From: Zygnema cylindricum
Lineage: Eukaryota > Streptophyta > Zygnematophyceae > Zygnematales > Zygnemataceae
Direction of reading: 5' to 3'
Length of the DNA stretch: 64,000 nt
NCBI GenBank assembly: GCA_037447655.1
Contig: JBBHKE010000766.1
Coordinates: 62,001 to 126,000, forward strand
The notes under the pieces were generated by a model. It saw only the letters and a program-made list of their open reading frames with translations, did no database searches and had not been told where the DNA came from. Made by a program: the position numbers and the translations under genes. Positions within the stretch are counted from its first letter, which is position 1. Each line of letters starts with the position of its first letter. Of the stretch, positions 6,298 through 60,412 are shown in pieces.

Positions 6298-6310
6298 TGG
6301 TATTGGAGCC
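6298..6310 (+). other. Primer binding site, tRNA-iMet 3'-end type
   Basis: TGGTATTGGAGCC lies two bases after the LTR and differs by two bases from the usual TGGTATCAGAGCC complement of the initiator tRNA-Met 3' end. Confidence 0.7.
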
Positions 6311-11352: not shown

Positions 11353-12018
11353 CATACAGTGGCCACAAATACGACGGTGTTTGCCCAAGAGCGAAAGGTG
11401 CGCCAAGTCAAAGTGCCAATCGATATACATAATATAATTGTGGAGAAGAGAAATGAAGAGATGCAAAAGTTAATGTAACAACAAGCTTAGGTCTTTTTTC
11501 TAACTTCGGACAAGTGCAAAGAGGAGATGTTTCCATTGAAAGGTGCGCCTCAAGAGGGTTCTTAAAATCAAGGACTTTTGCCTTACCGGGGACTTGTAGT
11601 TGAACCATTTAATTATAGTGACCACAAAGCTATACAACTATCACATCGTTGATTTTTTTAAGGTGACGCCAAAAGTATACCGCTATCACGTTATTGACAT
11701 TGTCAAGGTATTGTTGTACAACCACAATGACAATATAAAGTATTTTAGAGGCGAGATAAAATATTAAAATTCGTAGTAAGGTTCCCTATTGTTTCATTAG
11801 AATAATTTCCAAGATGTATTATTTGTTCCAAAAGTAGGCAACTTTGACTTTACTCTCATCGTTAAATTATTATTGTTCTACCCCAATGACATTATATAGT
11901 CTTATAGACCATACTAAGATTCTTATTATTTTATCATATTATTTGAATATTTTGCAACTTTTATGCATCATTTTGGTAATGTCCAAGTAGTATTATTTGT
12001 TCCCCGTTGCAGGTGGGT
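11353..12018. other. Intergenic, nothing identifiable
   Basis: AT-rich DNA with two loosely similar AAGGT-ACGCCA/GTGACCACAAAG stretches. No convincing coding frame or element termini. It lies 3' of the U2 gene. Confidence 0.5.
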
Positions 12019-12205
12019 TGAGTCTTCCTTGGAGGGAGTGCAATACCAAGGCAACGCTATTGGGATTGTTAGCAAGTTGACTTTGCACACCTCCTCCCTG
12101 AAAAATAAGGCTAATATCGTGCGGTTAGATCCACCGCGTATCAGATATTAAACTGATAAGAACAGATACTACACTTGATCTTAGCCTAAAGGCCGAGAAA
12201 GGTAT
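12019..12205 (-). ncRNA. U2 small nuclear RNA gene (possibly a variant or pseudogene)
   Basis: Read on the minus strand from 12205, it begins ATACCTTTCTCGGCC and follows the conserved first 67 nt of U2 with one change visible (GGCCTTTAGGC instead of GGCCTTTTGGC). The branch-point-pairing GTAGTA element is intact at about 12165-12171. Stem-loop II follows. The Sm-site region at 12098-12107 reads ATTTTTCAG rather than the usual ATTTTTTGG. The 3' part keeps a stem-loop IV of the U2 type (CCTTGG..CTCCAAGG at 12028-12050). U2 pairs with the intron branch site in the spliceosome. The altered Sm site leaves open whether it is expressed. The 3' end is estimated. Confidence 0.85.
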
Positions 12206-12613: not shown

Positions 12614-13582
12614 TGCAACTCTGAGACCTCCATAGGTCCTCAGAGTAGGCAACTCACACGAAGCCTATAGGATAACCCTAACCCCTTTGTGTTTCAGTAA
12701 GGATAACTACCACCCTGGCACACAAAAATACTGACCATCTTCACCCCTATGAAGGCAAGATTCCCTTGAGCCAATAGCAAAAAAAAAATCTGTGAATTTG
12801 CTCCCCTAAGCAGTAAGTTATTGAGGGTCAAAGTTGATGTTTTGTACAAAAGCTCTCTAGGAGAGAGGGTCCTATCTATTAATTTTTTCTAAGTCCTATC
12901 TCTCTCTAAAACTCTATCTACTAAAGTACGGCACCAATCATAATATTGTGTCGTACAGAAAGGTAGAAGTGTCGGTGTACTTTTTGTACGACCATTATAC
13001 GACATGGCCAACAAGTCGACACATGTCATATTTCGTTTCGTTCCTGTAATCCCCTGAGATGTCGTAATCTAATGTGGCTGTGCCACGTGTCAATCGATGT
13101 GGCATTGATGGCAAACCGCCGAAAATCCTATCCCGCGATCTCAGCATTCTTCGCGGTTGTCCGATCAAAACCGGTTTTCAATCGTAGCTGTCATAAATAC
13201 TTGCGCGATATTTGTTTCGCTATCGAAACAAAATGCGCGGTATCCGTTTCGAGATGTTCCATATTCCGTACAACAGAAAGTGTATCTATGTCATAATATA
13301 CCGTTAAAAGAAATAGTCTAAGTGTAAACATTTATATAACTATCAAACCCTATAACACGTAACCTTGGTTTTAGACTAATTGGATAAAGCTACCAGCTAC
13401 TGACGGCTTTGACGGAAGACAGGTACTAGGTTCAAATCCTGGGTCCGCCACGTACTATTTTGGAAAATCTACCAATCTACTGTCTGTCTCCCTCTGGATA
13501 GCATAAGCAGCCATGGCTCTAGCTCCCTCTCCAATTTTTAGTGACTGCGACAAGTGTGGGACCTGAAGAGAGGAGTTAGAGG
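12614..13582 (-). repeat. C1 3' LTR, larger part
   Basis: It matches 19143-20178 from its start (AACTCTGAGACCTCCATAGG on the plus strand) up to GAGTTAGAGG, where the solo LTR is inserted. The remaining 78 bp of this LTR are at 14769-14846. Removing the insert gives about 1047 bp, against 1036 bp for the partner LTR. A tRNA-like A-box/B-box block lies at about 13372-13450. Confidence 0.8.
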
Positions 13583-14763
13583 TGTTTGAATTCAAGTGTT
13601 TTCTAGGTCTAGAGATTGCAAAATAAAAAGCAAATAGAAGATATTGACAGCTTGCCTCTAACTCCTCACTCAAGTCCCCACACTTGTCGCAGTCACTGAA
13701 GACTGGAGGAGGAGTTAGCCATGGCTGCCTGTGCTGTCCAGAGAGAGACAAGCAGTAGTTTCATTGGGTTTTCTAAAAGGGAGATTGACCGAGCCAGGAT
13801 TTGATCCTGGTACATACCGTACGTCAATTCCGCAATAGCTGGTTACCTTATCCTAATAGTTTAGATCATACGAAGGGGGTATGATAGTTATATAAATAGT
13901 TACATTTAGACTAATTCATTTAACGGGAACTATATACATAATGCATAGAAACAATTGTATAAAGTACGAAGTACGATACGGTTACGAAATAAATACCGCG
14001 CATTTTGTTTGACATAAAAAAAAATACCGCGCAAGTATTTATGACGGCTACGATTGAAATCCGGATTTGATCGGACGGTCGTGAAGAATGCTGAGATCGC
14101 GGAATAGGATTTTAGCCGTTTGCGATCATCGCCATATCGAATGACACGTGGCAAAACCACATTGGATTGCGGCAACTCCGGGGATTACAGAAACGAATCG
14201 TGATGTGACATGTCTCGACATTTTGGCCATGTCGTACGATGGCCGTACAGAAAGTACACCGGCACCTGTACTTTTTTGTACGACACAGTATTTTAATTGG
14301 TGCCGTACTTCAGTAGATAGAGTTTTAGAGGGAGATACGACATAGAATAATTTGGTAGATAGGACCCTCTCTCTGAGAGAGCTTCTATACAAAAGGTCAT
14401 CTTTGACCATTCATAAGAATCAATTTACTTGACCAATTTTAGTGATTCTTTTTGCTGCGGACTAAGTGGAGTCCAGGCTACATAGGGATGTAGTTGGTCA
14501 GAGTTTTTGCTTGCCAGGGTGGCTGCATTTCTAAGGGAAAGTCAAAGTGGGTGAATGTGTCCAAAACTCATATTCTAACTTTGCATTCTGTGGTAGAACT
14601 GAGCACACAGAAAGTCTTATTTCACAAAGGTGAAGCTATAATGGGTTTGTGATTGTCAAGGGGTCAGTCATTTGGGTTTATATCAGCTTGGAGTCGGCAC
14701 TATCTAGATTATCTTCTTTTGGATCTGCGTACTCTGAGGGCCAATCGAGGTCTCACAGTTTAA
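13583..14763 (+). repeat. Solo LTR, inverted, inserted in the C1 LTR
   Basis: 1181 bp in opposite orientation to the host LTR. It begins TGTTTGAATTC and ends CTCACAGTTTAA (the final CA has become AA). AGAGG is duplicated at 13578-13582 and 14764-14768, the 5-bp duplication expected of copia integration. It resembles the gag-only element's LTRs (the block near 14470-14760) more than the LTR it sits in. The internal region was lost by LTR recombination. Confidence 0.8.
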
Positions 14764-14768
14764 AGAGG

Positions 14769-14846
14769 CATACTACCTCTACTTCTTTTCTGCATTTTAT
14801 CTTTTACAAAACCTAAAAAATACTAAAAGAACTTTTAATTTCTACA
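14769..14846 (-). repeat. C1 3' LTR, remaining 78 bp
   Basis: It matches the last 78 bp of the partner LTR (20101-20178 region) and ends TTCTACA, next to the polypurine tract. Confidence 0.8.
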
Positions 14847-14859
14847 CTCCACTTATTCT

Positions 14860-16770
14860 CTAGTCACTCTTTAATTTAATACAACACTTCTCCGTGCAGA
14901 AAATTAGTTTAGGGGAAGGCACAGGTTTTGTCAATATATATGTTACCATTTCAATATATGGTTCATACTCTAAACTGATTATCTTGTTTTCTACTTTCTC
15001 TTTGACAAAGCTAAGACTAATGTCCATGTGTTTGGTTTTGAAGTGATGTTCAGGATTGGTAGAATTGGAAATGGCTACCTGATTATCACAAAACACCTTT
15101 TGGACACCACTCTTAAGATGACCAAGCTCACAAAGGAAAGACTTGTCCCACATTTATTCATTTACGGCATAGCAAGAAGCCATGTATTCAGCCTCTATGG
15201 TGGACTGAGCAATGACCTTTTGCTGCTTGTTGCTCCAGCAGCAAGCCCTATCACCCACATACAATACATATCTAGACGTGCATCTTCTCATAGGAGCATC
15301 CCTATAGTTGGCATCACTCTAACTGGTGATGCCAGTATTGTTCCCACCCAAATGCAACCATATATCTCTAGTCCCTATGAGATATCTAAGGAAACTCTTA
15401 GCTGCCTCCCAATCCTTCTTAGTGGGAGCATTCAGACTCCTACAGCTGCGGCTATGTCCGGCCGGGTACAATTCATAAAATATATTAGGCTGCCCACTAC
15501 TTGCCTATAAGGAATTGTCTACATAATTCTTTTCTCTTCAAGGCCTAACTCATGATCCAAGATTATAACTCCCTCGTCCACACTCCCCTCACTTCCCTTG
15601 TTTAGTTCGAATGGAGTGGTATAACTCTTAGCCTTGGCCATCTGGAATCTCTCGAACATGTTTCCAATGGCTTCCTTCTGATTTAATTTTATTATCTTTC
15701 TATCTATGTCTCTCTCTACCTGAATTCCCAAAATATACCTTGCTTCTTCCATATCATTCATCTCAAATCTTCCTTTTAGATCATTTTTTAACATATTAAT
15801 TTTATCCGTATATTTGCTTAAAACAAGCAAATCATCAATATAAATTGCAATAAAAATAGTTCCTTCCTCATCTTCAAACAAGTAAATCGAGTGATCTTAG
15901 CTGATCGGAATATATCCCAAACCTGTAAGAAACTCATCGCGCTTCTTATTCCATTGTCGGGGCACCTGTTTGAGCCCATACAAAGATTTGATCAATCAAC
16001 ATACCTTGCTCTCTTCCCCTTGCTCCACAAATCCTTCGGGCTATCGCATAAAAATCTCCTCTTCTAACTCTCCATGTTGGAAGGTCGTCTTGATGTCCAT
16101 CTGATGTACTTCCATGTCTTCTGTTGCAGCCATCCTGAGAAGTGTCCGGACAGAGGGAAACCTGACGATCAGGGCAAATGTCTTCTTGTAGTCAATTCCC
16201 TCTTTCTGGGTAAATCCTTTCGCCACTAACCGAGCCTTATATCGCTCAATGGTGTTATCTCGGTTGAGTTTCAACTTAAATACCCACTTACACCCAATTT
16301 GCTTCCTGTCGAAGGACAAACCACCAATTCCCATGTATCGACCGCCATAATTAAGGCCATCTCCTCATTAATGGCTGTCTTCCACCAGTTTTTCTCAGGA
16401 CAAGTAATTGCCTCATTATATGTCTCTCTTGCACTTTTTTGATGCTTTCTTCTTCCTCCCTCAAACTTGGTTGTTGGGATAGATGGCTCCTTTGGATTCT
16501 TCCGAACATTTTCTAATTCTCCCAATCCCTTACTTCCGGGTCAATTTCCACCACGTCTTCCGCTTCGGTTGGAGTTGATACCAGGGATTCCACATTTGGG
16601 TCTTTTTCGATTTGATCTGTACCTGCAAGATCATCATCTTCTTGAAATCCTGGAAAGTTAGGAAGCTCAAAGTCATCAGAATTTTCTGACTCAAATTTGA
16701 TTCTGATTGTCTTTGTATGCTTAAAAGGATCTATATATTTCCCTTCATCCATGACCACTAGTTGCTTCAC
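14860..16770 (-). pseudogene. pol: C1 copia RT and RNase H, broken
   Basis: Frames at 16271-16770 (linker, then the WWKTAINEEMALI start of RT), 16041-16334 (CKWVFKLKLNRDNTIERYKA, RT fingers), 15519-15881 (YIDDLLVLS catalytic box intact, then ARYILGIQVERD) and 14860-15153 (CDNQVAISNSTNPEHHFKTK, RNase H) cover RT and RNase H in copia order. At least two frameshifts and several stops separate them. The stretch 15150-15510 is RNase H sequence in a third frame. The element cannot make a full Pol. Confidence 0.8.
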
Positions 16771-16868
16771 TAGGATTATATCTTCTCTCTTGAGATCATA
16801 GACTCTATATCCTTTTACATCTTCATCATATCCTAGTAGATATCTTGGTTTCCTGTTGGATCTAACTT

Positions 16869-18090
16869 CTAATTTGACCGATCTGTGTCTAAACTGAACA
16901 CTTGACTACCGAAAACCTTTAAGTGTGAAATATCTGGTTTTCGGCCTGTCCATCTCTCATAGGGTGTTTGGCCTTTTACTGCCGCAGTAAGAACTTTATT
17001 CTTGAGATAATTTGCACGGTTCATTGCTTCGGCCCAAAACTTCTTTCCTATCTTTTTATGTGACAACATACTCCTAGCACTATCACTAAGTGTTCTATTT
17101 AATCTTTCAGCTACACCATTATGCTAAGCATTTTCAGGAACTGTCTTTTGGTAATGCACTCCATCTTCTCTCATAAAATCCTCAAACTGGTTAGAGGTAT
17201 ACTCTCCACCATTGTCACTCGTTACTCTCTTGATAAAGGTTTCATAGAGTATTTCACTCCATGCTTTATATTGTCTAAAATATTCTCGAGCCTTTGACTT
17301 ATTTTTCAAAAAATACACCCTACAATACCGATACTAATCATCGGTGATAATCATCATAAATCTCTTTCCTCCGGGTGAGGGCACTCAGCCAACCCCCCAA
17401 ATATTTGTGTACTATATCTATTACCTTTTCTCCCTTATAGGTGGCAGTTTTTGGGAATGGTAACCTGTGTGCTATATCTTGAGCACACCCACTACAATCA
17501 CTTAGATTCCCACTCTCACTGAACTGAATCCCTTCCACTACTCCCATCTTTTTCATCTCTCTTAACTTATCTAGATTCACATGCCCAAGCCTCTTATGCC
17601 ACAACATTATATCATGCAGACCAACATAAGAAAGTTTTTTCTTTTCATTGCTTAAAATCAACCTAAACATCCCTTGGCTACCTTTTTCAGCAGTGAAATG
17701 AACTTCCTCCTCAAAACTAGCAGTAAAGACTCCTTTCCTAGTGCTAATATCAAAACCCGTATCATCTAATACAGATGTAGGGATGAGGTTTTTGTTCAGC
17801 TCCGGAATAATCAATATATCGGAGAATGTAACTAAGGATGTCTTTCCTTCTACTAACACTTTCAGATATACCGATCCTACAAGAGTAGTAGTGACTATCC
17901 TCCCATCCCCGTACTCTATCTCGACGGTGGAAATCTTTCTTATCTTAGTGAACAGGTGTTTATCCTTAAACAGGTGCATGGAGGCACCTGAATCTACAAT
18001 CCAATGTGCTTTACCTTTGAATCCACCGAAAGCACATTCATGCTTTCGTGGAATTTCGACCTCGTCTTTCGCTTCCAACTCCTCATCCAA
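16869..18090 (-). pseudogene. pol: C1 copia protease and integrase, broken
   Basis: 17338-18090 encodes a copia protease (WIVDSGASMHLFKD) and the GAG-pre-integrase domain (IMLWHKRLGHVNLDKLREM..CSGCA). Integrase core pieces lie at 17124-17318 (RVTSDNGGEYTSNQFEDFM) and 16869-17069 (MLSHKKIGKKFWAEAMNRAN). A stop sits just before the HNGVAERLNRT motif carrying the catalytic Glu (about 17125), at a position where Gln is usual. DSG, DNGGE and AERLNRT residues are conserved, so decay is moderate. Confidence 0.8.
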
Positions 18091-18137
18091 TAGGAGTTCA
18101 TCGTCCTCGTCCTCGGATTCCGCCTCATGTACCTATG

Positions 18138-19162
18138 TCACAGGGGCCTTTTTTTTCCTTTTGGGGTTCCACCAGTCTGCCCCTCCTTTAACCGCAACTC
18201 GGTTAACTTAGTGCACTCCGCCATATAGTGCACTTGTTTCTTACAAAAGTGGTACAAACCCTTGGGAGTCCTTGGTCCGAACTCCTTGGTCTGATTTTTC
18301 TGCCCCCCCTTCCATAATTTCCGACCGGTTTCATGGAATAATTGTTCCTCCAATCGGTCCCACTTGCCAAGGCTTGCTCACTCTTTCCTCCCCTTCAGAT
18401 CTCAATCGTAGTCTCCCGAACGAGAATCATCCCTACCATTGAATTCAATATCCACCTTCAGTCCGGCAAGTCCTGCACACGGTTGACTATGTTCTCGAAC
18501 TCATCTGGTAACTTTATGAGCAACTTTATGAGCAAGCAGTTAACCTTCATCTTTTCAGTTTCAACCTGTCCAACACTCTATAGCTCCATGAAAAGTGTTG
18601 CGAGCTCACTAGAGAAATCCAACATCTTCCCCCCCTTGTATACATATGCGTTTATTTTCTGATCAGCCAACTGCTGTTGCTGAATCGTACCACTTCGGTA
18701 CATCTCTATGAGAGCCACCCAAAGATCGGATGCCCTCTCAACTTGCAAATGAGGAGATGCAAGCCCTTGAGTAAGATGGAGGAGGATGAAGTGCTTTGCC
18801 GCCATATTGTTGTAGTCCCAGGCATCGATATCATTCTCCCCGTTCCTTGGAACAGGTGATATAAATGCCGAACCGGTAGCTATTGGTGTTACCGTCTCCT
18901 TCTCTTTTCCTTTGTCCACCACCTCCCCTTCCTTTGTCTCCTCTGTTGGAGATGGATCTGCATCTCTGGTGAATTTGCTTCCCGTAAACCTTAGAGGGAT
19001 CTCAAGACTGGATGGACGCCTCATCTGTCCACTCACTATTCCCCAAAACCGTTTCTCACATATAGCTATTGTCATCATACTTTCCCAGTATATGAAGCCA
19101 GTTCCATTGAAGATGGGCACCCTAGAAGGTGGGCCCATAACCTTGAACTCTGAGACCTCCAT
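18138..19162 (-). pseudogene. gag: C1 copia Gag, starting inside the LTR
   Basis: The minus-strand frame starts at ATG 19160-19162, 20 bases inside the 5' LTR, and reads MEVSEFKVMGPPSRVPIFNG through the primer site. A UBN2-type copia Gag core follows (WVALIEMYRSGTIQQQQLAD), then a stop at about 18580. A knuckle-like FCKKQVHYMAEC lies at 18138-18353 in another frame and lacks one of the expected Cys residues. The same start arrangement is kept in the gag-only element at 52734. Confidence 0.75.
19128..19142 (-). other. C1 primer site complementary to the tRNA-iMet anticodon arm
   Basis: The minus strand reads GGTTATGGGCCCACC directly after the LTR. From established plant initiator tRNA-Met sequence, this is the exact complement of nt 26-40 (GGUGGGCCCAUAACC: anticodon stem, CCCAUAA loop, first two bases of the 3' stem). 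Priming by a cleaved 5' tRNA half is known for Drosophila copia. Confidence 0.75.
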
Positions 19163-20178
19163 AGGTCCTCAAAGTAGGCAGCTAACACGAAGCCTCTAGG
19201 ATAACCATGGCCCCTTTGTGTTTCAGCAAGAATAATTGCCACCCTGGAAGACAAAATGTTTGACCTCCTTCACCCCTGTGAAGGCAAGACTTCCCTGAGT
19301 CGATGGCAAAAAGTATCTCTGAGTTTTCTCCCTTGAGCAATAAGTTATGGAGGGTCAAAGTTGACCTTTTGTACAGAAGCTCTCTGGGAGAGAGGGTCGT
19401 ATCTACCAAATTTTTCTAAGTCCTATCTCTCTCTAAAACTTTATCTACTGAAGTACAGCAACAATTAAAATATTGTGTCGTATAGAAAGGTACAGGTGTC
19501 GGTGTACTTTTTGTACAACCATTGTACGATATGGCCAACAAGTCGACACATGTCATATTTGGATTCGTTCCTGTAATCCTCGGAGATGTTGTAATCCAAT
19601 GTGGTTGTGCCACGTGTCAATCGATGTGGCATTGACAGCAAACCGCTGAAAATCCTTTTCCGCGATCTCGGCATTCTTGGCGGTCGTCCGATCAAAACCG
19701 GTTTTCAATCGTAGCCGTCATAAATACTTGCGCGATATGTGTTTCGCTGTCGAAACAAAATGCGCGGTATCCGTTTCGAGATGTTCCGTATTCCGTACAA
19801 TACAAACTGTATCTATGTTCTAATATACTGTTAAATGAAACAGTCTAAGTGTAAACATTTATATAGCTATCAAACCCTACATCGCATAACCTTGGTTTTA
19901 GATTAATTGGATAAAGCTACCGGCGGCTTTGATGGACGGCATGTACTAGGTTCAAACCTTGGGTCCTAAGTACTATTTTGGAAAATCTACCAATCTACTG
20001 CCTGTCTCCCTCTGGATAGCATAGGCAGCCATGGCTCTAGCTCCCTATCCAACTTTTAGTGACTGCGACAAGTGTGGGAGCTGAAGAGAGGAGTTAGAGG
20101 CAGACTACCTCTGCTTCTTTTCTGCATTTTATCTTTTACAAAACCTAGAAAATTGTAAAAGAACCTTTAAGTTCTACA
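19143..20178 (-). repeat. C1 5' LTR
   Basis: 1036 bp matching 12614-13582 plus 14769-14846. On the plus strand it contains GTACGG words, CGCGATAT and GCGCGGTATCC blocks, a tRNA-like block at about 19900-19970 and a CCATGGCTCTAGCTCC block. It ends TTCTACA at 20178. Confidence 0.85.
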
Positions 20179-24568: not shown

Positions 24569-27500
24569 GTGAGTTTTCTAATCTCTTGACATTACTTTTT
24601 CTCTCATCTGTTGTGCAGTACATATCTTCACACGTGCGGAACATATCTCTAATTCGCTGCTCTGCCGCTTCTTAGTCGATCCTGCTGCTGCAGAGTCGGC
24701 TCTGGAGGCGGTGAAGGCGGCGATTGTGAACAACGGGAACTTTCCCAAAATCAAATGTGACGGGGGGTATTTCTCCTGCGATGATTCCCGTCGCGTGTAT
24801 GAAATGTGAGTGATTATCGATGCGTGCAATTTTTGCTGTCATGATTCCACACTAAATTGCATACGGAATCTCGCACTAAATTTCGCACTTTATTCTAATT
24901 CATAGGATGTGTGCAAGCTCTGCCATAATGCGCCCTCGAGTTCAATGAGACCAGATGGTCGGGGAGGTGGGAGAAAGGATGAAAGGATTTCATTTAAACT
25001 TCTTTGAGAGGGGGATGCAGATTTTTAGAAAACCTAGGACTCCAAGGGAGCATTGCGGCGGAGGTAGGCAACCTCACACGATTGGAAACATTGTGAGTGG
25101 ACACTGGGATAGGGGACGCATTTGATGCTCAAAAATAGTAAGAAAATCTGGTTAGTAAAACATAATTATATTAGAAGGAAAAAAAAATCATCTTACATTA
25201 GGGGAGAGGCAAGGGGATGTTATAAATTGTAAATGGTAAAAAATGGAACAAAAGTAGCTTTACCTTTTGATATTTTTTGTCAATATTTGATGGTTTTTTT
25301 TTTTAATTCGTTCTTTGTGTTTGGAAATTTTAGATTTCTTGTTTAATCAAAAAGTTTTAATTGTGGAAGTTTTCGTTTCATGATGGAAGAGGAGTGGTGT
25401 GAGGGTGGGTGGGGTGGGGTGTGTTAGGATATTGTACAAAGCACTTACTTAGCGACGAGATTCTCTCGTAGCTAAATTAGCGACGACTAGCGACGAAAGA
25501 AGTCTCGTCGCTAGATATTTGAAGTGACGTAGAATTTAGCGACGAAGTACTTTCGTCGCTGGATATTTGAAGTGACGTAGAAAATGTTTGTTCGTTTCGT
25601 TTCACGCAAGTTCTGGTCGTACCGTACAAGTGACGTGGAAATTATTTGTTCGTTTTGGTTCACGTAAAGTCTAGTCGTACCGTGTAGTTCAAGTTGGTTC
25701 ACAGTTGACCTTTTCTAGTCTTACCGTGTTGTTCAAACCGGTTCGCAGTTTTCGGTCGTATGTTTCGGCGCGTTGACTCTTACACGTTTTAGTTGTGTAC
25801 ATATATATACTTGTTGGGACTTAGTGGTTTATCTATCTTTTGGAGGCGTAGCTTGTTAAGGAGGCGTAGAAAGGTTAGAAGTAAAAGGAAGGAAGAAAAA
25901 GAGTTGTACTTGCATTGTGCTTAATATATTGAATGTTTTTGGAGGAACACCATTGTTGTGTGTGTATTGTATTTGGTTTGCAATCTTTCAATTGGTATCA
26001 GAGCGGGTTACTGGCAACACTTGCCGGTATAGCGGAGAAAGGGAAATCCCCGGCGGAACCTAGTGGAGGAGCTAGTGGGGGAGTTAGTGGAGGAGGAGTT
26101 ACAGGGACACAATATGATAAATATGACGAAGGGAGGGGTAACTCCCTCTAGATCGGGTAACTTTAAAAGCACCGATAGGGTAACCTTAAAAGCAGGCGTG
26201 GTTAGTCAAAAGTGGCATAAAGCTAAAAGTACGTGTTTTAGAAAATAGACCTCAAATTATATCTGTACAACTACATTTTTTTGGGTAATGATTTTAAGCA
26301 GACCTCATGTGTGTAACGGGCATGATAAACTAGCATGGAAAATAAACATGAAAAACGGCCATAAAAAACGGGCATTATAAATAGGCATGGAAAACGGGCA
26401 TGACAAATGTGCATGAAAAACAGGACACGGTCATTGCTCGTGTAACGGGCTTTGATTTACTTGTTTAAACAAATGATATGACAGAATCATGTCACTTGTC
26501 AGTTGATACGCATTTAGCTCTAATAATCCGGTGTAAACTGTAAAATATTCTCATCCCTTAATATCGTGCATTGCTTTTCCTCAAGCCTACTGCAAGGTCC
26601 ATCTCCTCGGCCTGAAAATAATGACGATCTAGCCGAGTTCAACGAGCTTGTAATAGTCATGCATAAAAGTACTAATTCAAGTAGTAGTTCAATTGTCCGA
26701 AAATAGGAATTTTTTTACCGAAAGGCCCAAATGACAGATTTTCTTTTTTCCTAATGGTTTTCAAATGGTCTGATTTTTTTAAAACATCGCTGGCACAAGT
26801 TTAAATCCCACGAATTTTGCAGGTGGGAGTGGGACTGGTTCTAATTGGTCTTTTATTCTAACTTTTAGTAGTTGTTCCTCTTCGAGTCCCGATCGTCCTG
26901 TTTTTCTTCTGTTAGGACGTACAATTTTTGAATCTACGTTTAAGCTACGTTGGTTCGTAGTTAGTGTGGATATAGATTTGACCGTGCGTTGGTTTGCGTA
27001 CTTTGGTTTTGTTTCGTATAGTTTGATGTATTATTTCGTGCGTGTATTTTTCACACGTACACGATTAGATTTGATTTCGTTTCGTTTAAGTTCTAGTACC
27101 TACGTCGAGAAGTTTCGTTTCACGCGACGTACGTCTAGTAGTTTCGTTGCGCGTAAGTTAAATTATTCGTACAGGACTTTGTCAGTTTCGTTTCTAGTAG
27201 TTTCATTTTGTTTTGTACCACATTTACGTCTAAGTACATTTAGACACTTCTAGAGTTAGTGTTCTAGATTGTTTCTACGGCTAAGTTATAAAGCCATTGT
27301 GTGAGTTAGATTGTATGGTTCACAGTTGACCTTTTCTAGTTTTACCGTGTTGTTCAAACCGGTTCGCAGTTTTCGGTCGTATGTTTCGGCGCGTTGACTC
27401 TTACACGTTTTAGTTGTGTACATATATATACTTGTTGGGACTTAGTGGTTTATCTATCTTTTGGAGGCGTAGCTTGTTAAGGAGGCGTAGAAAGGTTAGA

Positions 27501-42197: not shown

Positions 42198-44110
42198 GAG
42201 AACACCTCAAAACTTGCGCATAAAAATTTCTTTTGGTAATGTTTGTTGTTGCTTTATATCAAAGAAATGAAGGTTTTTTGGTCGAGATGGGCTAGCCACC
42301 ATCCTCTTGGAATTGTGCTATTTGAGATCATAATACTGATCCGGTCCTTGTTTGTTTGCACCTTTGAAGACTAAACAGCATTACAATTAATATATTTCTT
42401 TTTGTTGTTCCAGTGAAACGATTTGGAAAATTTTGTAACACCACCTAAAAAAATGATGTCTCTAGTGTCATTTGGACTACTTAAAAACAGTGGAGGAGGA
42501 GGTGGAGGAAGAGAGATAGGGGGGAGAGGAGGGAGTTGTGTGGAGATAGTGGAAGGAAGACTGTCTTAGGGGGGTGAGAGAGCAAGAGAGGGACCTACCA
42601 AAAATTTGAAGGGCTCTAAATGCTAAAAATGGCTTGGAAAATCAGCAAGCATTTATGTTTGTTGGAAAAGTTGTATTCTTCTGTTTTGATTTATTTGCTT
42701 CAATGGTTGTTGGTGCCTTTTTTGTTTAGGATTGAATAACAGATTACCAATTTCTTGTTTGAAAATAATCATATTGGTTTTCCTTTTCTTATTAGTAACT
42801 CAAATGTGTAGCTTGTCTATAATCAACAAAAAATTAAGAGAGAAAGACCATTTACTCCGTAGAAATTTGGGAATCTACACTTACAAATACAAAGTTTTCT
42901 TGGTTTAATGTTTGGTATCGTTTTCTGTTGTTGTTGTGGTTGTTGTTCTTATTGTCCATTGAGGCTAATTTATTGGTTCGATGAGAAGTTGTGCAGGATT
43001 TATGGTAGTAATTGTTAGATACAAAACCTTTGGGCTTCCCTTCTTCATGTTTAATAATAGTAATATAAATAACGACAAATCAAAACCACACGTTGGTGAT
43101 CCATTCGAGTACATAGGGAAAAAAAAAGGGGCAACGTCTGAAGTAATCCTAGAAATCTATCATGATTATTCATTATATGGCCACGTGATTTGCATAAAGA
43201 TTTTGGAAATAAGGGGTAAAATAAAAAAAAAAAAACTACATCATGAATCAATAATAGTGTCAATGACATTTTTGATGCGTCAATCATCGTTTCTCCCTGC
43301 ACAAGTGTTTAACCCCCGTTTGGACACTACCAGTCGAAGGGTAATATCCTTACCTTTTCATCGCAATTTTCGGGTTAATAAAAAGACACGTGTGCACAAA
43401 GAAAGGATGTTTTCAGCGACGAAAAAAACATTGATTCTATAATGATTCATTGTTGTTGTGGACATCATGCCACTTGTCCGTTACAAAATCATTAATTCAT
43501 TTATGAGTAAATTTAGTATTGAAGATTAGCTCTCAAAGTTGACTGCTCTCGTAGTATAATCTTTTAAAGAAATTGGATTAAATTAGGCTTATTGAAGATG
43601 TTGAGGAATGATTGTCCTTTGAAACCTACTCCAATAATCATCATTAGAGGAAAGGTTTTTTTAAAGGGGAATTGATTTTCATGTTATTTACTCTTATTCA
43701 ACTCCTAATGCCGATCGGTTTAATTTAGTTGTAGTTGAATCGTCTTATTTAGGGATTAAAAAAAAAAGTAAGATTAACTATATGTTTATGTTTAGTTATT
43801 TAACATGTACTTAAGTTCGTGTTTGGTTGTGCTTTTTTATTTTGGCCAACCGGTAGAACTTCGCACACCTAAATGAGCACACGTAATCGAAAGAGTTGGT
43901 TATGCTCACATTGAGTCAAGCAAGGAAGCAGGCTCGTTACGAGTTGTCAAGATTAAGTGGATGGATGCACAAACGTTTTTTTGTTCAAGCAAATCAATGA
44001 ACAGTTATCGGTTCTATCGGTTCACGGAATGATCGATGGAAGTTTTAACGTGAACGCCCAACCTCTTCTTGCGGCTGTTCATGTTCGCGCCTCCCGTTTT
44101 CTATGCCGCC
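42198..44110. other. 3' flank and intergenic DNA
   Basis: No confident gene. A 153-codon frame at 42981-43442 is Lys-rich and contains an A-tract; it lacks any recognisable motif. A GGAGGAGG/GAGAG purine tract is at 42490-42590. Confidence 0.45.
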
Positions 44111-44115
44111 CAGGT

Positions 44116-44602
44116 TGTTAGCGTCAAAATTGAAATCGGCCGTCGCGGTGTGTCGCGCGGCCGGCTAGTTGTCTTTACGTGGTCCTTGTTTTGTTGTTAT
44201 ACGTTTCGCAGATTCGTGGTCTTGCGTAGATTCGGTTTTGCGACGACCAGGTTCATTTGTCGTTTGGTGTGTACGTTTGGTGTGTACGTTTGGTTGTTCT
44301 TTGTACGGCTTTGGTTGTACGTTTGTTTAGTACTTTAGTACTATGTAGTTTCGCGTGTAGACGCGATTTGATTGGTAGGCGCTTCGTGCGCACTTTATGT
44401 TTTGGTTTGGCTTTATAGTTTGAAGTAGTGACGTTATGTTTGTAGTACTATTTATTGGAACTTAGAGGGAGGGGGGAACTTAACTTTTAAGGGGAAAATT
44501 TCTATGGAATATATTGGCTTCCGTGGACTCTCTCTCTCTCTTGTGAATGTTCTGAATGCTTTCGCTGTTTTCTTGCACTCTGATTTTGTGTAAGATCCTT
44601 CA
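44116..44602 (+). repeat. C3 5' LTR and adjoining primer site
   Basis: 487 bp. The primer site TGGTATCGGAGCC (44605-44617) is the usual tRNA-iMet 3'-end type with one change. A CTCTCTCTCTCTTGTGAATG block near the end is shared with the 3' LTR. Confidence 0.88.
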
Positions 44603-48012: not shown

Positions 48013-49478
48013 GTGGAAGCACGAAAATCATGCGATTGGGAGAAGCATTGGAAACCGGCGTGGGAAAGGGAACTTCAATCGATTATCGACAACCGTACTT
48101 TTGAGGAGGTAAGCCTACCGGAAGGTAAAAAGGCTATTGATGCAAAGTGGATTTTCAAAACTAAAACTGGTGTATCTGGGGAAGTAATGAAGCATATGGC
48201 TCGGCTAGTTTGTAAGGGCTTTCAACAACGGGAAGGAGTAGATTATATGGAAACATGTGCACCGGTAGTGAAGTTTGATTCTTTGAGGATGATTATTACT
48301 ATTGCCGCTGCCGGCAAAAAGCATATTCACCAAATGGACGTAGAAACAACGTTCTTGAATGGTGATTTAGAGGAGGAGGTTTATATGAAAGTTCCGGAGG
48401 GAGTAGTGTCGAAGGAGGGGAAGGTATGGCGGATGCGAAAGTCCTTGTACGGACTTAAGCAAGCGCCAAGGACTTGGTATTTACGTTTACACAAAGTCCT
48501 GACCGAATTTGGATTCGTACGAACAGTTTCTGACTCTAGCGTTTACGTCAAGGTGAGGGGAAGGATCGAATCATATTTTCAGTTGACTTTTTGATGATAT
48601 GTGACAAGCTGACGCGAATCGCGGAATAAAAGGATTATTTGCGTCTTCACTTTAAAGTCACAGATTTGGGGGACGTACGATATATTCTTGGAGTGGAAGT
48701 TTTGAGGTACGATAATGGTGATATTAAATTGTCGCAAGCGCAATATTGCAGAGAAGTACTGACAAAATTAGTTATGCTGGATTCTAATCTAAGCCGGTAT
48801 TGACACCACTACATTCCAAACTTCAATATCACAAATTTGAGGGGGAAACTGTCCACGTGCCCTATCTTAAGGCCGTTGAAAGTTTAATGTATTTAAGTGT
48901 GGCCACGCGACCAGATATTTCAGCCGCATTTTCTGTCGTGAGCCGATTTTGTCAGGCGCCCAAAAAGATTCATTGGGAGGCCGTGAAGAGGATTTTTCGT
49001 TACCTTGCAAGTACAGTCGAGATTGGTTTGTTTATTCGATCTGGACGGTCATCTTGGGAGTGCGTGGGATATTGTGACGCACATTGGGGTGGTGACTTCG
49101 ACAAAGGAAAGTCAACGTCAGGTTATGCTTTTGTTTTTGGCGGCGGGGCAGGTTCTTGGAGTTCGCGACTTCAACCGACTGTCGCATTAAGTTCTACCGA
49201 AGCAGAGTAAATGGCAGCGTGTCACACTTCTAAAGCGTCGATTTGGATTAAGGAGTTACTTGGAGAATTGGGGATTTCTATTGGCTGTATGAAAATCTTT
49301 TCTGACAGTATGAGTTCGATGGCGTTGGAAAACAATCATATCTTTCACAAAAGGACAAAGCATGGCAGCGTGTCACACTTCTAAAGCGTCGATTTGGATT
49401 AAGAGTTACTTGGAGAATTGGGGATTTCTATCGGCTGTATGAAAATCTTTTCTGACAGTAAGAGTTCGATGGCGTTGG
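48013..49478 (+). pseudogene. pol: C3 copia RT and RNase H, first part
   Basis: RT at 48013-48594: [60 protein letters not shown]. The catalytic YVDD region (about 48585-48600) is disrupted by a small deletion and frameshift. RNase H at 48800-49210 has PDISAAFSVVSRFC, CDAHWGGDFDKGKSTSGYAF and [10 protein letters not shown], then a stop. 49210-49478 holds a tandem duplication and is cut by the gag-only element. Confidence 0.85.
49210..49478 (+). repeat. Tandem duplication in C3 RNase H
   Basis: ATGGCAGCGTGTCACACTTC starts two copies at 49211 and about 49363. Each continues through GGCGTTGG. The first copy runs on to ACAAAGC. The second is cut by the nested element, and its continuation is at 54063. 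The duplication therefore predates that insertion. Confidence 0.8.
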
Positions 49479-50826
49479 TGAAACTTTGAGACCTCCATTG
49501 GCCCTCAGAGTATGCAGATCCAAAAGAAGCTAATCTAGATAGTGCCGACTCCAAGTTAATATAAACCCAAGTGACTGACCCCTTGACAGTCAGAAACCCA
49601 ATATAGATTCACCCCTGTGAAATAACACTTTCTGTGTGCTCAGTTCCACCACAGAATGCAAAGTTAGAATATGAGATTTGGACACATTCACCCACTTTGA
49701 CTTTCCCTTAGAAATACAGCCACCCTGGCAGACAAAAACTCTGACCGACTACACCCTTGTGTAGCTTGGACTCCCTTGAGTCCGCAGCAAAAAGAATCAC
49801 TGAAAATGGTCAAGTAAATTGATAGTTATGGCTGGCCAAAGTTTGCCATTTATCCAAGGTGCTCTCTAGGAGAGGCAGCTACCTACAGAAATATTCTAAG
49901 TCCTAAACCCCTCTCTAAACCCTCTAGTACTGAGGTACGGACCAATCACATTACTGTATAGTACACAAAGGTACAGATGCCGGTGTACCTTCTGTACGGT
50001 CATCGTACAACATGGCTAAAAAGCCAACAAATGTCCTATCCGGATTCGCTCTTATAATCTCTGGAATTCCTGCCTCCAAATCTTATCTCTCCACGTGGCG
50101 CCAGGTCATGCCGCGTCATAAAAATGGTACCGTACGAGAAAGTACAAGTGTCGGAGTACTTTCTGTACGTACATTATACGTTGTCGCCATAGTGCGACAT
50201 TTGTCATTCCCGGATTTGTTTTCTGCCGTTCCGGAAATTACGTAATACCGTACGATGTTGCCACGTGTCATCCGGAGTGGCGGCGTCTGCAAACCGCCAA
50301 ATTATCCTTTGTCGTAGCCGGCGCTAATCACGGCCATCCAATGTATTTCGGCATTCAATTGTAGCCGTTGAAAATTGGTGCGCGATATTTGTTTCGCTAT
50401 CGAAACAAATGCGCGGTATCCGTTCCGTCCCCGTACTGTACTCCGTACTAAACTAAACTGTCTTTATGTACTAAAAATCGTAACCTAGTTAAATGGAAAA
50501 TCCTATCTATAACTGTTTAAATATTTATCAAACCCTACACGTACTAGCACTAGTCCTAGACTAAATGGACAAAGCTAACGGTTACTGGATGTTTGGCGGA
50601 CGGTAGGTACCAGGATCAATTCCTGGGTCCGTCAAATATAATTTTGGTAAACATACCTATTATCTATTCCTGTCTCTCTGGAAAGCTTAGGCAGCCATGG
50701 CTCTAGCTCCCTCTCCAGCCTTCAGTGACTACGACAAGTGTGGGGGCTTGGAGAAGGGAGTCAGAGGCAGACTGCCTCTACTCTTTTCTATCTAACAAAG
50801 ACCTAGAAAATACCCAAATATCAACA
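49479..50826 (-). repeat. Gag-only element, 3' LTR
   Basis: On the plus strand TGAAACTTTGAGACCTCC to AAATATCAACA. It contains GTACGG words, a CCACGTGTCATCCGG block and a tRNA-like block at about 50565-50635. Only scattered single differences from the partner LTR are visible. Confidence 0.92.
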
Positions 50827-50854
50827 CTCCCCTTATTTTCTAGTCTATTTCCTT

Positions 50855-51523
50855 TCAACTCTTACAAACAAAATAAACAAAACACTCCCTCCCCTTTTTC
50901 CTTTTTCTTTTCTTTTTCCTTTTATATAACTTAAGAAATATGCTCTCGTATTTAAAACACTGCATTAGATGAAATGAAATTATAATTGCATCACACATTT
51001 CATTTAGCATCCCACTTATCATAAATCCGAGCAAAGATTTTATCCACCTTATCTCTTTTCTATCCACACTAAATCCACTTTCCCTCTTGCAATTCAAACA
51101 ACCAGCCCCATCTCCAATCTGCAACACACACCCTGAGGCTAACCCTTTTACAGGCACACCTTCATAAATACCATCACTCCCTTTAGTGAGGTCAAACCCA
51201 TTACCCCCAAAACATGAACTTTCCTCACTCTCTCCCATGGATGTCTTTCCACTCTCACTTTCTAAATTTATTCCCAATAAACATTTCTCCTCCCCTAAAC
51301 CTTTCATTAAGTATTCCTCTTCTTCCTTATCCTTTAAAACTCCTAGTTTCACTTCTCCCCTTTCCTCGGAATCCGTTGAAGTCTCCTTTTCCGACCAGTT
51401 TTCTTTTTCCAAAATATCTAAAAAATTCCCCTCATTATTTTTATTTTTCCCTTTTTCAATAATTGGTCCTAGATCCGACTTACTCATTTCTAAGTCATAC
51501 TTTCTACACTCCTTGACATCCAC
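50855..51523 (-). CDS. Unknown acidic 3' frame of the gag-only element
   Basis: A 222-codon minus-strand frame (conventional ATG near its start) between the Gag knuckle and the polypurine tract. It is Glu/Lys/Ser-rich (EKENWSEKETSTDSEERGEV) with a short Cys motif CVLQIGDGAGCLNC and a basic C-terminus KRKKKRKRKKGRE. No match to a retrotransposon domain is recognised. It occupies the place where pol would be. It could be a captured or drifted sequence; function unknown. Confidence 0.4.
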   Translation of the reverse strand: MDVKECRKYDLEMSKSDLGPIIEKGKNKNNEGNFLDILEKENWSEKETSTDSEERGEVKLGVLKDKEEEEYLMKGLGEEKCLLGINLESESGKTSMGESEESSCFGGNGFDLTKGSDGIYEGVPVKGLASGCVLQIGDGAGCLNCKRESGFSVDRKEIRWIKSLLGFMISGMLNEMCDAIIISFHLMQCFKYESIFLKLYKRKKKRKRKKGRECFVYFVCKS

Positions 51524-52734
51524 ATCATGTCTAACTCCCTCAAGTACCTCCCTTCCCTTTACTTCTCTAATACCTCCAAAAACACACTGTTGTCTTCGTG
51601 GAATTTCCGTGTACTTTTATTTCTTCTCCATTCTACCGATGTGAAGAAGCTCCAAAACTTTTTCATCTTCTTTCTCCTCTTCCCCTTCTTCCTCCTCATT
51701 CACACTCCAACTTCTAAGTTCTTCCAAACGAGGACACTCCTCCATATAGTGACCCGGTTTCCTACAAGCAAAGCAAACCCCTTGTTTCAAAGCTCCCCTT
51801 TCTTTTCCTCTCCTTCTCTTTCCACCAAAGTTCCGATAAGGTTTACCTTTGTCTTTCTTCCTCTCATCACGCTTCCGCTCGTCACCGCCTTCCTCTCATC
51901 ACGCTTCCGCCAATCACCACCAGCTGTAAATGCAGTCACCCTTTCACTTCCCCTACGAAGCTCCAAAGTGCTTTCCCTCACAAGTATTATCCCCATGGTA
52001 ACGCTCCAAGTCCACGAGGAGCCATCCATTTCCTGCATACGGTAAATGATGTCTTCGTACTCATCCGGGAGTTTCATTATTAGAGTATTAATCTTTCTCT
52101 CCTCAGATTCTACATATCCCGCACTAGCAAGCTCAACATATAATGCAGCAATATCATTGCAAAACTCTATCATGCTACCGCCTTTATAAACATAGGCCTC
52201 TATTTCTTGTTTCACTAATTGCTGCCTCTGTATAGTCTCACTCTTATAAATCTGAATTAGTGCTTCCCATATTTTTGAAGACTTGGTTAGACTTAAAAGA
52301 GTGATAGCTATGGACTTAGACACATATCTAAGTATGAGATGTTTTGCTATAGTGTTTTTATAATCCCATATTTTTCTATCATTTTCTTCAGTTTTAATCC
52401 CTACAAGTGGTACCATAGCCGAGAGCCTAGCTCCCCTCACCATAGGTGTCCCTTTTTCCTTCTCCCCTATTTCCCCATCCACGGAAAGATTCTTCCCTTC
52501 ACCTTCCGTTGCATCTGAGCTCCGGATGATATTCTGGGCAGCCTCAGATGAATCTCCATAGTAAGCTCCTCCAAAGCCAGGTGGCGGACATCTCACTTGA
52601 CCCGAAACAATTCCCCATAAGTGCTTCTCGAAAAGCAATCCCGCCATTGTAAACTCCCAATAAGTGAAGTCTGTTCCATCAAACATAGGCACCCTAGATG
52701 GTGGGCCCATAACCTGAAACTTTGAGACCTCCAT
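51524..52734 (-). CDS. gag: Gag of the gag-only element, starting in the LTR, one frameshift
   Basis: Starts at ATG 52732-52734, 20 bases inside the 5' LTR, and reads MEVSKFQVMGPPSRVPMFDG across the primer site. A UBN2-type copia core (KIWEALIQIYKSETIQRQQL, MIEFCNDIAALYVEL, LPDEYEDIIYRMQ) runs to a stop at 51787. In the adjoining frame comes an intact CCHC knuckle CFACRKPGHYMEECP (about 51735-51780), an acidic stretch, and TEIPRRQQCVFGG, which parallels the segment just before the C1 protease. The likely role is particle formation in trans with an autonomous partner. Confidence 0.75.
52700..52714 (-). other. Primer site complementary to the tRNA-iMet anticodon arm
   Basis: GGTTATGGGCCCACC on the minus strand, directly abutting the LTR end TTTCA, the same 15 bases as C1. 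It complements nt 26-40 of plant initiator tRNA-Met. The ATG inside it pairs with the CAU anticodon and also encodes Met-9 of Gag. Confidence 0.75.
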
Positions 52735-54062
52735 TGGCCCTCAGAGTATGCAGATCCAAAAGAAGCTAATCTAGATAGTGCCGACTCCAAGTTAATATAA
52801 ACCCAAGTGACTGACCCCTTGACAGTCAGAAACCCAATATAGATTCACCCCTGTGAAATAACACTTTCTGTGTGCTCAGTTCCACCACAGAATGCAAAGT
52901 TAGAATATGAGATTTGGACACATTCACCCACTTTGACTTTCCCTTAGAAATACAGCCACCCTGGCATACAAAAACTCTGACCGACTACACCCCTGTGTAG
53001 CTTGGACTCCCTTGAGTCCGCAGCAAAAAGAATCACTGAAAATGGTCAAGTAAATTGATAGTTATGGCTGGCCAAAGTTTGCCATTTATCCAAGGTGCTC
53101 TCTAGGAGAGGCAGCTACCTACAGAAATATTCTAAGTCCTAAACCCCTCTCTAAACCCTCTAGTACTGAGGTACGGACCAATCACATTACTGTATAGTAC
53201 ACAAAGGTACAGATGCCGGTGTACCTTCTGTACGGTCATCGTACAACATGGCTAAAAAGCCAACAAATGTCCTATCCGGATTCGCTCTTATAATCTCTGG
53301 AATTCCTGCCTCCAAATCTTATCTCTCCACGTGGCGCCAGGTCATGCCGCGTCATAAAAACGTTACCGTACGAGAAAGTACAAGTGTCGGAGTACTTTCT
53401 GTACGTACATTATACGTTGTCGCCATAGTGCGACATTTGTCATTCCCGGATTTGTTTTCTGCCGTTCCGGAAATTACGTAATACCGTACGATGTTGCCAC
53501 GTGTCATCCGGAGTGGCGGCGTCTGCAAACCGCCAAATTATCCTTTGTCGTAGCCGGCGCTAATCACGGCCATCCAATGTATTTCGGCATTCAATTGTAG
53601 CCGTTGAAAATTGGTGCGCGATATTTGTTTCGCTATCGAAACAAATGCGCGGTATCCGTTCCGTCCTCGTACTGTACTCCGTACTAAACTAAACTGTCTC
53701 TATGTACTAAAAATCGTAACCCAGTTAAATGGAAAATCCTATCTATAACTGTTTAAATATTTATCAAACCCTACACGTACTAGCACTAGTCCTAGACTAA
53801 ATGGACAAAGCTAACGGTTACTGGATGTTTGGCGGACGGTAGGTACCACGATCAATTCCTGGGTCCGTCAAATATAATTTTGGTAAACATACCTATTATC
53901 TATTCCTGTCTCTCTGGAAAGCTTAGGCAGCCATGGCTCTAGCTCCCTCTCCAGCCTTCAGTGACTACGACAAGTGTGGGGGCTTGGAGAAGGGAGTCAG
54001 AGGCAGACTGCCTCTACTCTTTTCTATCTAACAAAGACCTAGAAAATACCCAAATATCAACA
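52715..54062 (-). repeat. Gag-only element, 5' LTR
   Basis: 1348 bp, equal in length to 49479-50826. Minus-strand termini TGTTGATATTT and AGTTTCA. The tRNA-like block is at about 53800-53870. Confidence 0.92.
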
Positions 54063-54063
54063 G

Positions 54064-54258
54064 TTGGTAAAAAATCATGTCTTTCACAAAAGGACAAAGC
54101 ATATCAGGATTCAGTGGCATTTCGTACGCGATTTGGTCGCTGCGAAGGAGGTTGATTTTTTGTACGTTTCGACGTTGGAGGAAGCTGTGTATATGTTGAC
54201 TAAACCTGCGGCTCATGATGTGTTATTGAGGGGGAGACCTAAATTAGGATTGATGTAA
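54064..54258 (+). pseudogene. pol: C3 RNase H C-terminus after the nested element
   Basis: Continues the host frame with VFHKRTKHIRIQWHFVRDLV and AVYMLTKPAAHDVLLRGRPK, the usual copia Pol end, followed by a stop and the purine tract GAGAGGGAGG before the LTR. Confidence 0.85.
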
Positions 54259-54282
54259 TGATTACAAGTTTGAGAGGGAGGC

Positions 54283-54781
54283 TGTTAGCGTCAAAATTGT
54301 AATCGGCCGTCGCGGTGTGTCGCGCGGCCGGCTAGCTGTCTTTACGTCAAGCGTGTGTGGTCCTTGTTTTGTTGTTGTACGTTTCGCAGATTCCTGGTCT
54401 CGCGTAGATTCGGTTTTGCGACGACCATGTTCATTTGTCGTTTGGTGTGTAAGTTTGGTGTGTACGTTTGGTTTGTCTTTGTACAGCTTTGGTTGTACGT
54501 TTGTTTAGTACTTTAGTACTATGTATTTTCGCGTGTAGACGCGATTTGATTGGTAGGCGCTTCGTGCGCACTTTATGTTTCGGTTTGGTTTTATAGTTTG
54601 AAGTAGTGACGTTACGTTTGTAGTACTATTTATTGAAACTTAGAGGGAGAGGGGAACTTAACTTTTATGGGGAAAAATTTCTATGGAATATATTGGGTTC
54701 CGTTGACTCTCTCTCTCTCTTGTGAATGTTCTAAATGCTTCCGCTGTTTTCTTGCACTCTGATTATGTGTAAGATCCTTCA
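54283..54781 (+). repeat. C3 3' LTR
   Basis: 499 bp, matching 44116-44602 with small indels. Ends GATCCTTCA followed by the CAGGT duplication. Confidence 0.9.
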
Positions 54782-58699: not shown

Positions 58700-59461
58700 G
58701 TTCACATAGCAATTCTCAAACTTTGAATTGTCGGGTGAATCCTGCCTTCCTGGCGTCAATCCTGATTATCGCCAACTGTACTCACAATTATGTACTTGTG
58801 GATCCAGGATCTACGTGCCGGCTGTTAACGCTGAAGCTGCCAAAAAGTCAACGTTCGAAGGAAATCAACAATATTGAACAACTCGCTGACTTGTGGACCC
58901 ACTGGAGTTAATCCGGATCTAGTGTGTTCAGCTTTAAACTTTTCAAATTAAATTTCTAACTGGGGCCTAGTTGGATTCGGACTATTGAGCTCTATCCTGA
59001 GCAGAGGTCTCTTCGTTCAGGAGTTAATAAAAATATCCATGTAAAATGTTGTCATATCAGATATCTAATGGGGGTAACAATCACGGTTTTACCGGAAAAT
59101 AAGGACAGTATTTTCGGCTCTCGGTCTGTTTCTTTTAGAAAAGTAACTTGCTTTGCCAATTAGAAAATCTGAGAGTTTTTTTGTATTTTAACATTTTCCT
59201 TTTATCCTTTCTGGTTTATATAGTATGACACTAAATTCGATAATAGTTTCAGAAATTTGAACCTATTAATTATTCTCCAACTTTGTCAACTGATGTTGCT
59301 GATACTTTGATCCGTGTGAAAAATCAAATGTATGTTTTCCTTCCTAAAACTTTACCTGAAACATTGTTTTTGAGTGTTTTTACATTTTGTTTTTCTGTTG
59401 ATGTTCAATTGTTCTCACAAATCTTTGACTACCTGAGTAGGTTCAAGTAATATAGGTTGAA

Positions 59462-59469
<8 letters not shown>
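58700..59469. other. Region upstream of the ALY-like gene, nothing definite
   Basis: No convincing exon, although 58700-58910 has higher GC than its surroundings. A noncoding first exon or promoter of the downstream gene could lie here. Confidence 0.35.
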
Positions 59470-59723
<254 letters not shown>

Positions 59724-60085
59724 GCTTTTTATAAGATGGATTTACATTTTTCAGGGTCCAGTCAAGTACTTGCTACGAACATGATACATTGTTTGTCTTT
59801 TTGATATGCTATATAAATACCTTGCCTTGAGGGTTGAATTTGCAAGAGAATGTTTGATCTGATGCTTTGAAAACTTATCATTTTATTTGGTACATGTTTT
59901 ATTACAATATGAAGGCATAGAATAGTATAGTTTTCATTTGATTGATAGAAAGTTCTTTTTTGTATATCCCCATGACAAGGGAAAACCCATATCTGACATA
60001 AAGTTTGTGTGCTTTACTATTTATTGCTCTTCAATTAGGATGAAATTTGTGGAAATTGGGAGTGTGTAGTACTCGAGATTGTTAT

Positions 60086-60278
<193 letters not shown>

Positions 60279-60412
60279 GAAGCTATTTTATTTCCAAGAA
60301 TAAAACTACAGAGTGACACTTCAACGCTCTGGAGCGGTTTGGATCTTTCGCGCTTCCAGAAGTTAAACTCTTCATGAACCGCTGATTTTGGTGTTTTTTG
60401 TAACATATTTTT

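Follow-up and report, generated by a model that had tools for sequence, protein, structure and literature searches.

Several retrotransposons of the Ty1/copia group are primed by one half of a tRNA, and, to judge by the titles of Kikuchi et al. 1986 and Ke et al. 1999, this priming has reportedly been studied experimentally. The hemivirus-type elements Ty5, Osser, 1731 and copia are of this kind: initiation occurs at nt 40, with the cDNA starting from the 3'-OH of that nucleotide in the anticodon stem-loop (PMC1181622), and they live in Drosophila, in yeast and, for Osser, in Volvox, a plant or alga. Among plant copia elements, 1/2tRNA-Met primer sites are given for Osser, Bryco and part of Gymco-II, and a 1/2tRNA-Ile site for Bianca; half-tRNA sites make up about 2% of elements overall (Neumann et al. 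2019, PMC6317226). Ty1 of yeast uses an initiator tRNA primer and has its primer site inside the gag frame (PMC4974528).

Here we describe a copia family of Zygnema cylindricum. The window, by which we mean the whole stretch of DNA analysed, comprises 64,000 nucleotides (assembly GCA_037447655.1, contig JBBHKE010000766.1, positions 62,001 to 126,000 of the forward strand); positions are those of the window unless a locus is named. Two of its elements have, next to an LTR, the same 15 bases complementary to the initiator tRNA-Met (tRNA-iMet) of the host, which we call the half-site. We concluded that these bases are very probably the minus-strand primer site of a Ty1/copia lineage that would prime from the 5' half of this tRNA, with nt 40 of the anticodon stem as the last base of the primer. 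The domain order, the pairing with nt 40 and the site at the LTR end that mark half-tRNA-primed (hemivirus-type) Ty1/copia elements were all found, although priming is here read from sequence alone. Like Ty1, the family combines an initiator tRNA with a primer site inside the gag frame. Compared by published description, Osser, Bryco and Gymco-II are likewise green-plant elements of copia type with a half-tRNA-Met site beside the 5' LTR; the site inside gag, the U5 hairpin and the gag-only members seen here are not mentioned for them in the accessible text of PMC6317226. Bianca differs in its 1/2tRNA-Ile site as described there, our own comparison having been made with tRNA-iMet, which matched at 15/15 bases. 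The preliminary description had implied that half-tRNA priming would be novel in a plant copia lineage. Because half-tRNA-Met sites of plant copia elements have been in print since 2019 (PMC6317226), the present family is a clear, well-supported new case, and the half-tRNA principle itself has already been described in certain plant and animal elements.

Table 1. Features of the gag-only element and of element C1, in window positions.
Feature	Positions	Strand	Remarks
Gag-only copia-type LTR retrotransposon, non-autonomous	49479..54062	-	LTR pair, TSD, TG...CA termini, gag domain only
5' LTR of gag-only element	52715..54062	-	1348 bp; terminal TTTCA at 52715
3' LTR of gag-only element	49479..50826	-	1348 bp
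Target site duplication (TSD)	49474..49478 + 54063..54067	.	GTTGG on both flanks
U5 hairpin, AUG in loop	52719..52747	-	11 pairs in family; family covariation
U5 AUG	52732..52734	-	at -20, in frame with gag; ATG there in 55/60 sites
Primer binding site (half-site)	52700..52714	-	GGTTATGGGCCCACC; complementary to host tRNA-iMet nt 26-40
Gag reading frame from primer-site AUG	51787..52710	-	VMGPPSRVPMFDGT...; Retrotran_gag_2
Polypurine tract preceding 3' LTR	50827..50838	-	AAATAAGGGGAG
C1, old full-length copia	12617..20100	-	gag, protease/pre-integrase, RT remnants
Primer site of C1	19128..19142	-	same 15 bases as gag-only element

The LTRs of the gag-only element (Table 1) are 99.4% identical, and the gap between the 5' LTR (...TTTCA) and the half-site is 0 bases, which bears out the earlier observation of an LTR end followed at once by the site. 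A purine tract, AAGGGGAG, lies upstream of the 3' LTR. Retrotran_gag_2 was the sole Pfam domain; the second ORF returned zero domains, and a zinc-knuckle motif lies 3' of the gag frame in a different frame. Non-autonomous elements of the TR-GAG type carry two LTRs, a TSD, a primer site, a purine tract and gag without pol. The window element and a second locus, L013, show all of these features and differ from TR-GAG in that their primer site is of the half-tRNA type. The internal region measures 1.88-1.89 kb in the window element, L013 and L025; the latter two resemble the window element in being gag-only in size. The window element is a non-autonomous member of the family, probably moved in trans by pol-bearing relatives such as L009, described below. 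Two of the gag-only elements have an extra coding stretch 3' of gag (50855-51616 (-) in the window; L013:2965-3858, 298 codons), for which no Pfam match was found. The window element itself is housed in another element, C3 (44112-54781), whose LTRs (44112-44602 and 54279-54781) are 93% identical.

Searching the window with GGTTATGGGCCCACC at up to 2 mismatches gave two sites, those of the gag-only element and of C1 (Table 1); one additional place fits with 3 mismatches. In C1 the 15 bases follow the 5' LTR, as had been claimed, and stand in the same register; the terminal LTR bases there are GTTCAA, not TTTCA. Identity between the C1 LTRs is 88.3% over the aligned part, and Pfam recognized gag, Pol_BBD and pre-integrase domains in C1, which has RT remnants too. 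Inside C1, beside its 3' LTR, lies LTR sequence of the same superfamily in opposite orientation (13599-14761), which resembles two distinct LTR types. The ordinary-type primer sites attributed to the gypsy, C2 and C3 elements of the window were also located: TGGTATTGGAGC at 6298 in the gypsy element (2 mismatches), TGGTATCAGAGC at 25993 and 27614 in C2, and TGGTATCGGAGC at 44605-44616 in C3. In C2 and C3 the site, TGGTATC[A/G]GAGC, starts two bases past the LTR end (TTCA). The C3 site has one mismatch to the acceptor end of the tRNA gene at L069 and fits the ATCGGAG variant of host tRNA-iMet (L071, L074) without a mismatch; ordinary copia elements of this genome may therefore use differing tRNA-iMet isodecoders. 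Elsewhere the window holds a sequence resembling a U2 spliceosomal RNA gene, between LTRs (12013-12205 (-), 132.8 bits), and tandem arrays of 8-base and 21-base units at 59439-60308 and 41969-42203.

We compared the half-site with the tRNA-iMet genes of the host. A plant tRNA-iMet pattern matched 8 genomic places, exactly at 5 of them and with one or two changes at the other 3 (control 0), among which ARAGORN called 6 distinct tRNA-Met (CAT) genes; L070 repeats the L069 gene and L075 shows the L072 gene, each being counted once. The two uncalled places resemble decayed copies, and one of them, C561:273868, is altered inside the arm. All 6 called genes contain GGTGGGCCCATAACC, the exact complement of the half-site, so that 15/15 bases match at linear nt 25-39 and the local tRNA does not differ at any site position. 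In standard numbering linear nt 25-39 are Sprinzl 26-40, because position 17 is absent. The preliminary description had named the complement of tRNA-iMet nt 26-40, and this was confirmed in every gene aligned. The acceptor stems vary among these genes (ATCAGAG, ATCGGAG, ATCAAAG), a variation that should make no difference to the half-site. The first base of the half-site pairs with nt 40 (linear 39), and the LTR-final A before it does not pair with nt 41, so the complementary stretch reaches no further than the LTR edge. It ends at the position where Drosophila copia had been said to cleave its primer tRNA, nt 40 being the initiation point in PMC1181622. For one particular 15-mer, the probability of coinciding with some antisense word in ~60 tRNAs is ~3e-6.

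The half-site is abundant. In the genome as searched (352,776,454 bases, or 353 Mb, in 2689 contigs) there are 3019 + 2955 = 5974 exact copies, a count that takes in the few tRNA genes themselves; the reversed-pattern control gave 6. Of the first 100 places listed, 60 were fetched with their flanking sequence; all come from the first contigs rather than from a random sample of the genome. Once identical rows had been merged and places too close to a stretch end removed, 58 distinct fetched sites were left, and these together with the 2 window sites form the 60-site set. The two bases before the half-site are CA in 55 of the 58 fetched sites, CT in 2 and TA in 1. The residues MGPP occur in 58/58, which the search pattern forces and which has no evidence value. 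The frame stays open for 66 codons in 35/58. One of the 58 looks like another copia family: L018:2003 (+) is a seemingly different element (MGPPPWLPIFDGSNYHY...) in which CA precedes an identical half-site that contains a gag-like start. A second LTR was searched for in the L018 stretch and not found. This locus may show two families sharing the half-site device.

Complete copies place the half-site at the LTR end. An LTR pair was found in 8 of the 10 loci tried (none by the same rule at L015 and L017), and at all 8 the half-site begins at the end of LTR similarity or no more than 3 bases from it. L009 has LTRs of 1050 bp that are 99.8% identical, a TSD of GCAAA and one uninterrupted gag-pol stretch of 1444 codons; its order is LTR end, half-site, gag, and the half-site is its sole primer site. 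Searched in 4 pieces, the L009 ORF contains Retrotran_gag_2, CCHC (under cut-off), Pol_BBD, gag_pre-integrs, rve, SH3_retrovirus and RVT_2, which is the copia domain set in the copia order (gag, protease/pre-integrase, integrase, RT). L013 (LTRs 99.5% identical, TSD GTCAT) has a frame open to 3861, L025 (99.1%, TSD TCAGC) has a frame broken at codon 17, and L016 has an LTR pair with TSD TAGTT. Each LTR of L009, L013, L016 and L025 ends in CA immediately before the half-site. An RT lies 2.3-4.3 kb behind the site in 13 half-site copies, L009 itself included; the site is exact in 11 of them and has up to two changes in 2. These RTs share 65-96% identity with the L009 RT, some matches being short (47-150 residues), whereas the RT of C2 reaches 44%, and that of C3 51% over its main part.

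The TGGTATCAGAGC-type site that follows the 5' LTR in ordinary plant copia elements was absent from that place in the copies analysed. Scanning 8 elements from LTR to LTR, we found no ordinary site (up to 2 mismatches) at the LTR end, and so no full-length member with a normal 3'-end site there; the sole TGGTATCAGAGC-like match, with 2 mismatches, lies ~880 bases inside L019. Scoring the LTRs for a primer site gave a bimodal result. Of 49 distinct LTR ends at the fetched loci, 23 run into the half-site (0-2 mismatches), among them the sites used to select the loci; at the other 26 the adjoining sequence is unrelated (7 or more mismatches), and no end scored between 2 and 7.

The U5 hairpin (Table 1) spans -33 to -5 and lies 4 nt upstream of the half-site. 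Covariation was scored in 56 sequences, 50 of them distinct, leaving out of the 60 sites L018 and three with an indel. Paired cells made up 91.5%, compared with 78.2% when shuffled and 21-49% when slid, and 86 cells were changed on both sides, compared with 30.7 in shuffles; kinship among the sequences inflates the shuffle comparison, the slid comparison less so. Two other measures were weaker: for the number of pairs changed on both sides and for the number of pair types, 32 and 31 of 500 shuffles attained the observed value. A separate count over the 54 distinct rows of all 60 sites gave 89.1% paired and 100 two-sided changes. The window copy has one stem mismatch (C.A), and its own lowest-energy fold differs from the hairpin. 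Retroviral U5 inverted repeats that adjoin the primer site offer a parallel. We also considered pairing of U5 with the 5' end of the tRNA: 21 of 67 rows have, at -33, an ACTCTGA that could pair with tRNA nt 2-8. This set of rows contained tRNA gene loci, the source of its +19 to +24 matches. This candidate was rejected; the hairpin explains ACTCTGA better, because other subfamilies change this arm together with its hairpin partner, the tRNA arm not following.

Priming by a 5' tRNA half would proceed as follows. We infer that the tRNA is cut after nt 40, where an enzyme would cleave tRNA-iMet; the 5' half would anneal to the half-site, and reverse transcriptase would extend it into U5. Plus-strand synthesis would then copy the annealed 15 nt and rewrite the half-site from the tRNA in each cycle, so that the half-site would stay uniform. 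An uncut tRNA-iMet might instead anneal through its anticodon arm, with the 3' end coming from elsewhere, from a second tRNA or a self-primer. A co-varying hairpin beside the half-site would suit such an arrangement, and other copia elements of plants (TAR) have been predicted to prime themselves (PMC6317226). In the 8 scanned elements, however, the LTR is not followed by an ordinary site, and complementarity starts right at the LTR edge, which is where it should lie for a primer ending at nt 40. We consider the uncut tRNA improbable.

The half-site also sits within the gag reading frame (V-M-G-P-P), and it could be kept only as coding for the start of gag, the match to the tRNA being due to chance. 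Its AUG is in frame, and the frame continues with SRV in 44/58 fetched sites and with one or two residues different in 13 more. We therefore sampled the junction with a pattern blind to the site, ANTT-N18-HTCTAGGGTRCC, in which neither the site itself nor the final three bases of the LTR are specified. It gave 6289 matches, compared with 7 for the control. In the 100 matches listed, which come from the first contigs and which the anchors of the pattern bias toward better-kept copies, the half-site was exact in 58, with one change in 29, two in 10 and three in 3, and CA preceded it in 87. Of the silent positions in the half-site, position 4 was kept in 98 of these 100 matches, and positions 10 and 13, the fourfold silent ones, in 100/100 each; thus, coding alone does not account for the half-site. 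In the 60-site set, which was chosen by the site and so differs from the site-blind sample, the 14 silent positions of gag between +15 and +54 were kept at 0.63, 0.98, 0.98, 0.75, 0.50, 0.43, 0.50, 0.95, 0.88, 0.50, 0.63, 0.78, 0.37 and 0.62, with 10 of them at 0.37-0.78 and the other four at 0.88-0.98. The match to the tRNA is moreover exact, has its end at the LTR edge and takes in nt 40, the initiation point published for half-tRNA elements (PMC1181622). Conservation for coding alone is thus very unlikely, and the silent-site result largely refutes it. Taken with the 5974 exact copies, the 58% of exact sites suggests about 10,300 half-site junctions in the genome.

Conservation extends beyond the part that pairs with the tRNA, to +16 to +24 (TCTAGGGTRCC), where two silent positions stand at 0.98. 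The tight silent positions past the half-site are +18 and +21 (0.98 each), +36 (0.95) and +39 (0.88), and tRNA pairing does not explain them.

Within the half-site the first base is the loosest (G 79, A 15, C 6 of the 100 site-blind matches listed), the other 14 positions being tighter. Four of the 15 A-variants were fetched and none is both young and intact: three have LTR pairs of 86-94% identity and one has no pair in the stretch, and their frames are broken within 12-109 codons. Decay of CAG to CAA is expected at a methylated CHG site. As the four fetched copies are old, decay appears a simpler reading of the A-variants than a primer ending at nt 39; given the loose first base, the exact primer end would be nt 39 or 40.

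A reading of the half-site as an ordinary 3'-end primer site that has decayed or been misread is scarcely conceivable and is refuted as far as sequence can do so, since no supporting points were found, the C2 and C3 sites two bases past the LTR share no common register with the half-site, and the half-site is exact in young copies.

The gag start may be either the AUG in the U5 hairpin loop or the AUG in the half-site. From the U5 AUG the frame reaches through the half-site into gag in 49/60 sites and meets a stop in 6/60, including L009. The remaining ATGs in the last 150 LTR bases number 27 in total in the 60-site set, and the GTA control 58. Gag would presumably begin with the MEVSEFQVMGPP type from the U5 AUG and with MGPP from the primer-site AUG. 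We tentatively raise the possibility that the primer site doubles as part of the gag frame and, where a stop follows the U5 AUG (6/60), as the gag start codon. The initiator anticodon would then read one AUG twice, once in translation and once, as a cut half, in reverse transcription, and the AUG-bearing hairpin could switch the RNA between translation and copying. In searches of the open-access literature, none of the papers listed appeared to concern a half-tRNA site overlapping the start of gag.

We concluded that the match to the tRNA, the copy number, the silent conservation and the young copies lacking an ordinary site support the earlier suggestion of a plant copia lineage primed by a 5' tRNA half. 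With 5974 exact sites in 353 Mb, such a lineage is no rarity in this host. Its abundance and its young copies could make the mechanism accessible to experiment in a plant. The family offers a plain test case for how plants produce tRNA-iMet halves and, where the start sites overlap, for one RNA that serves both translation and priming.
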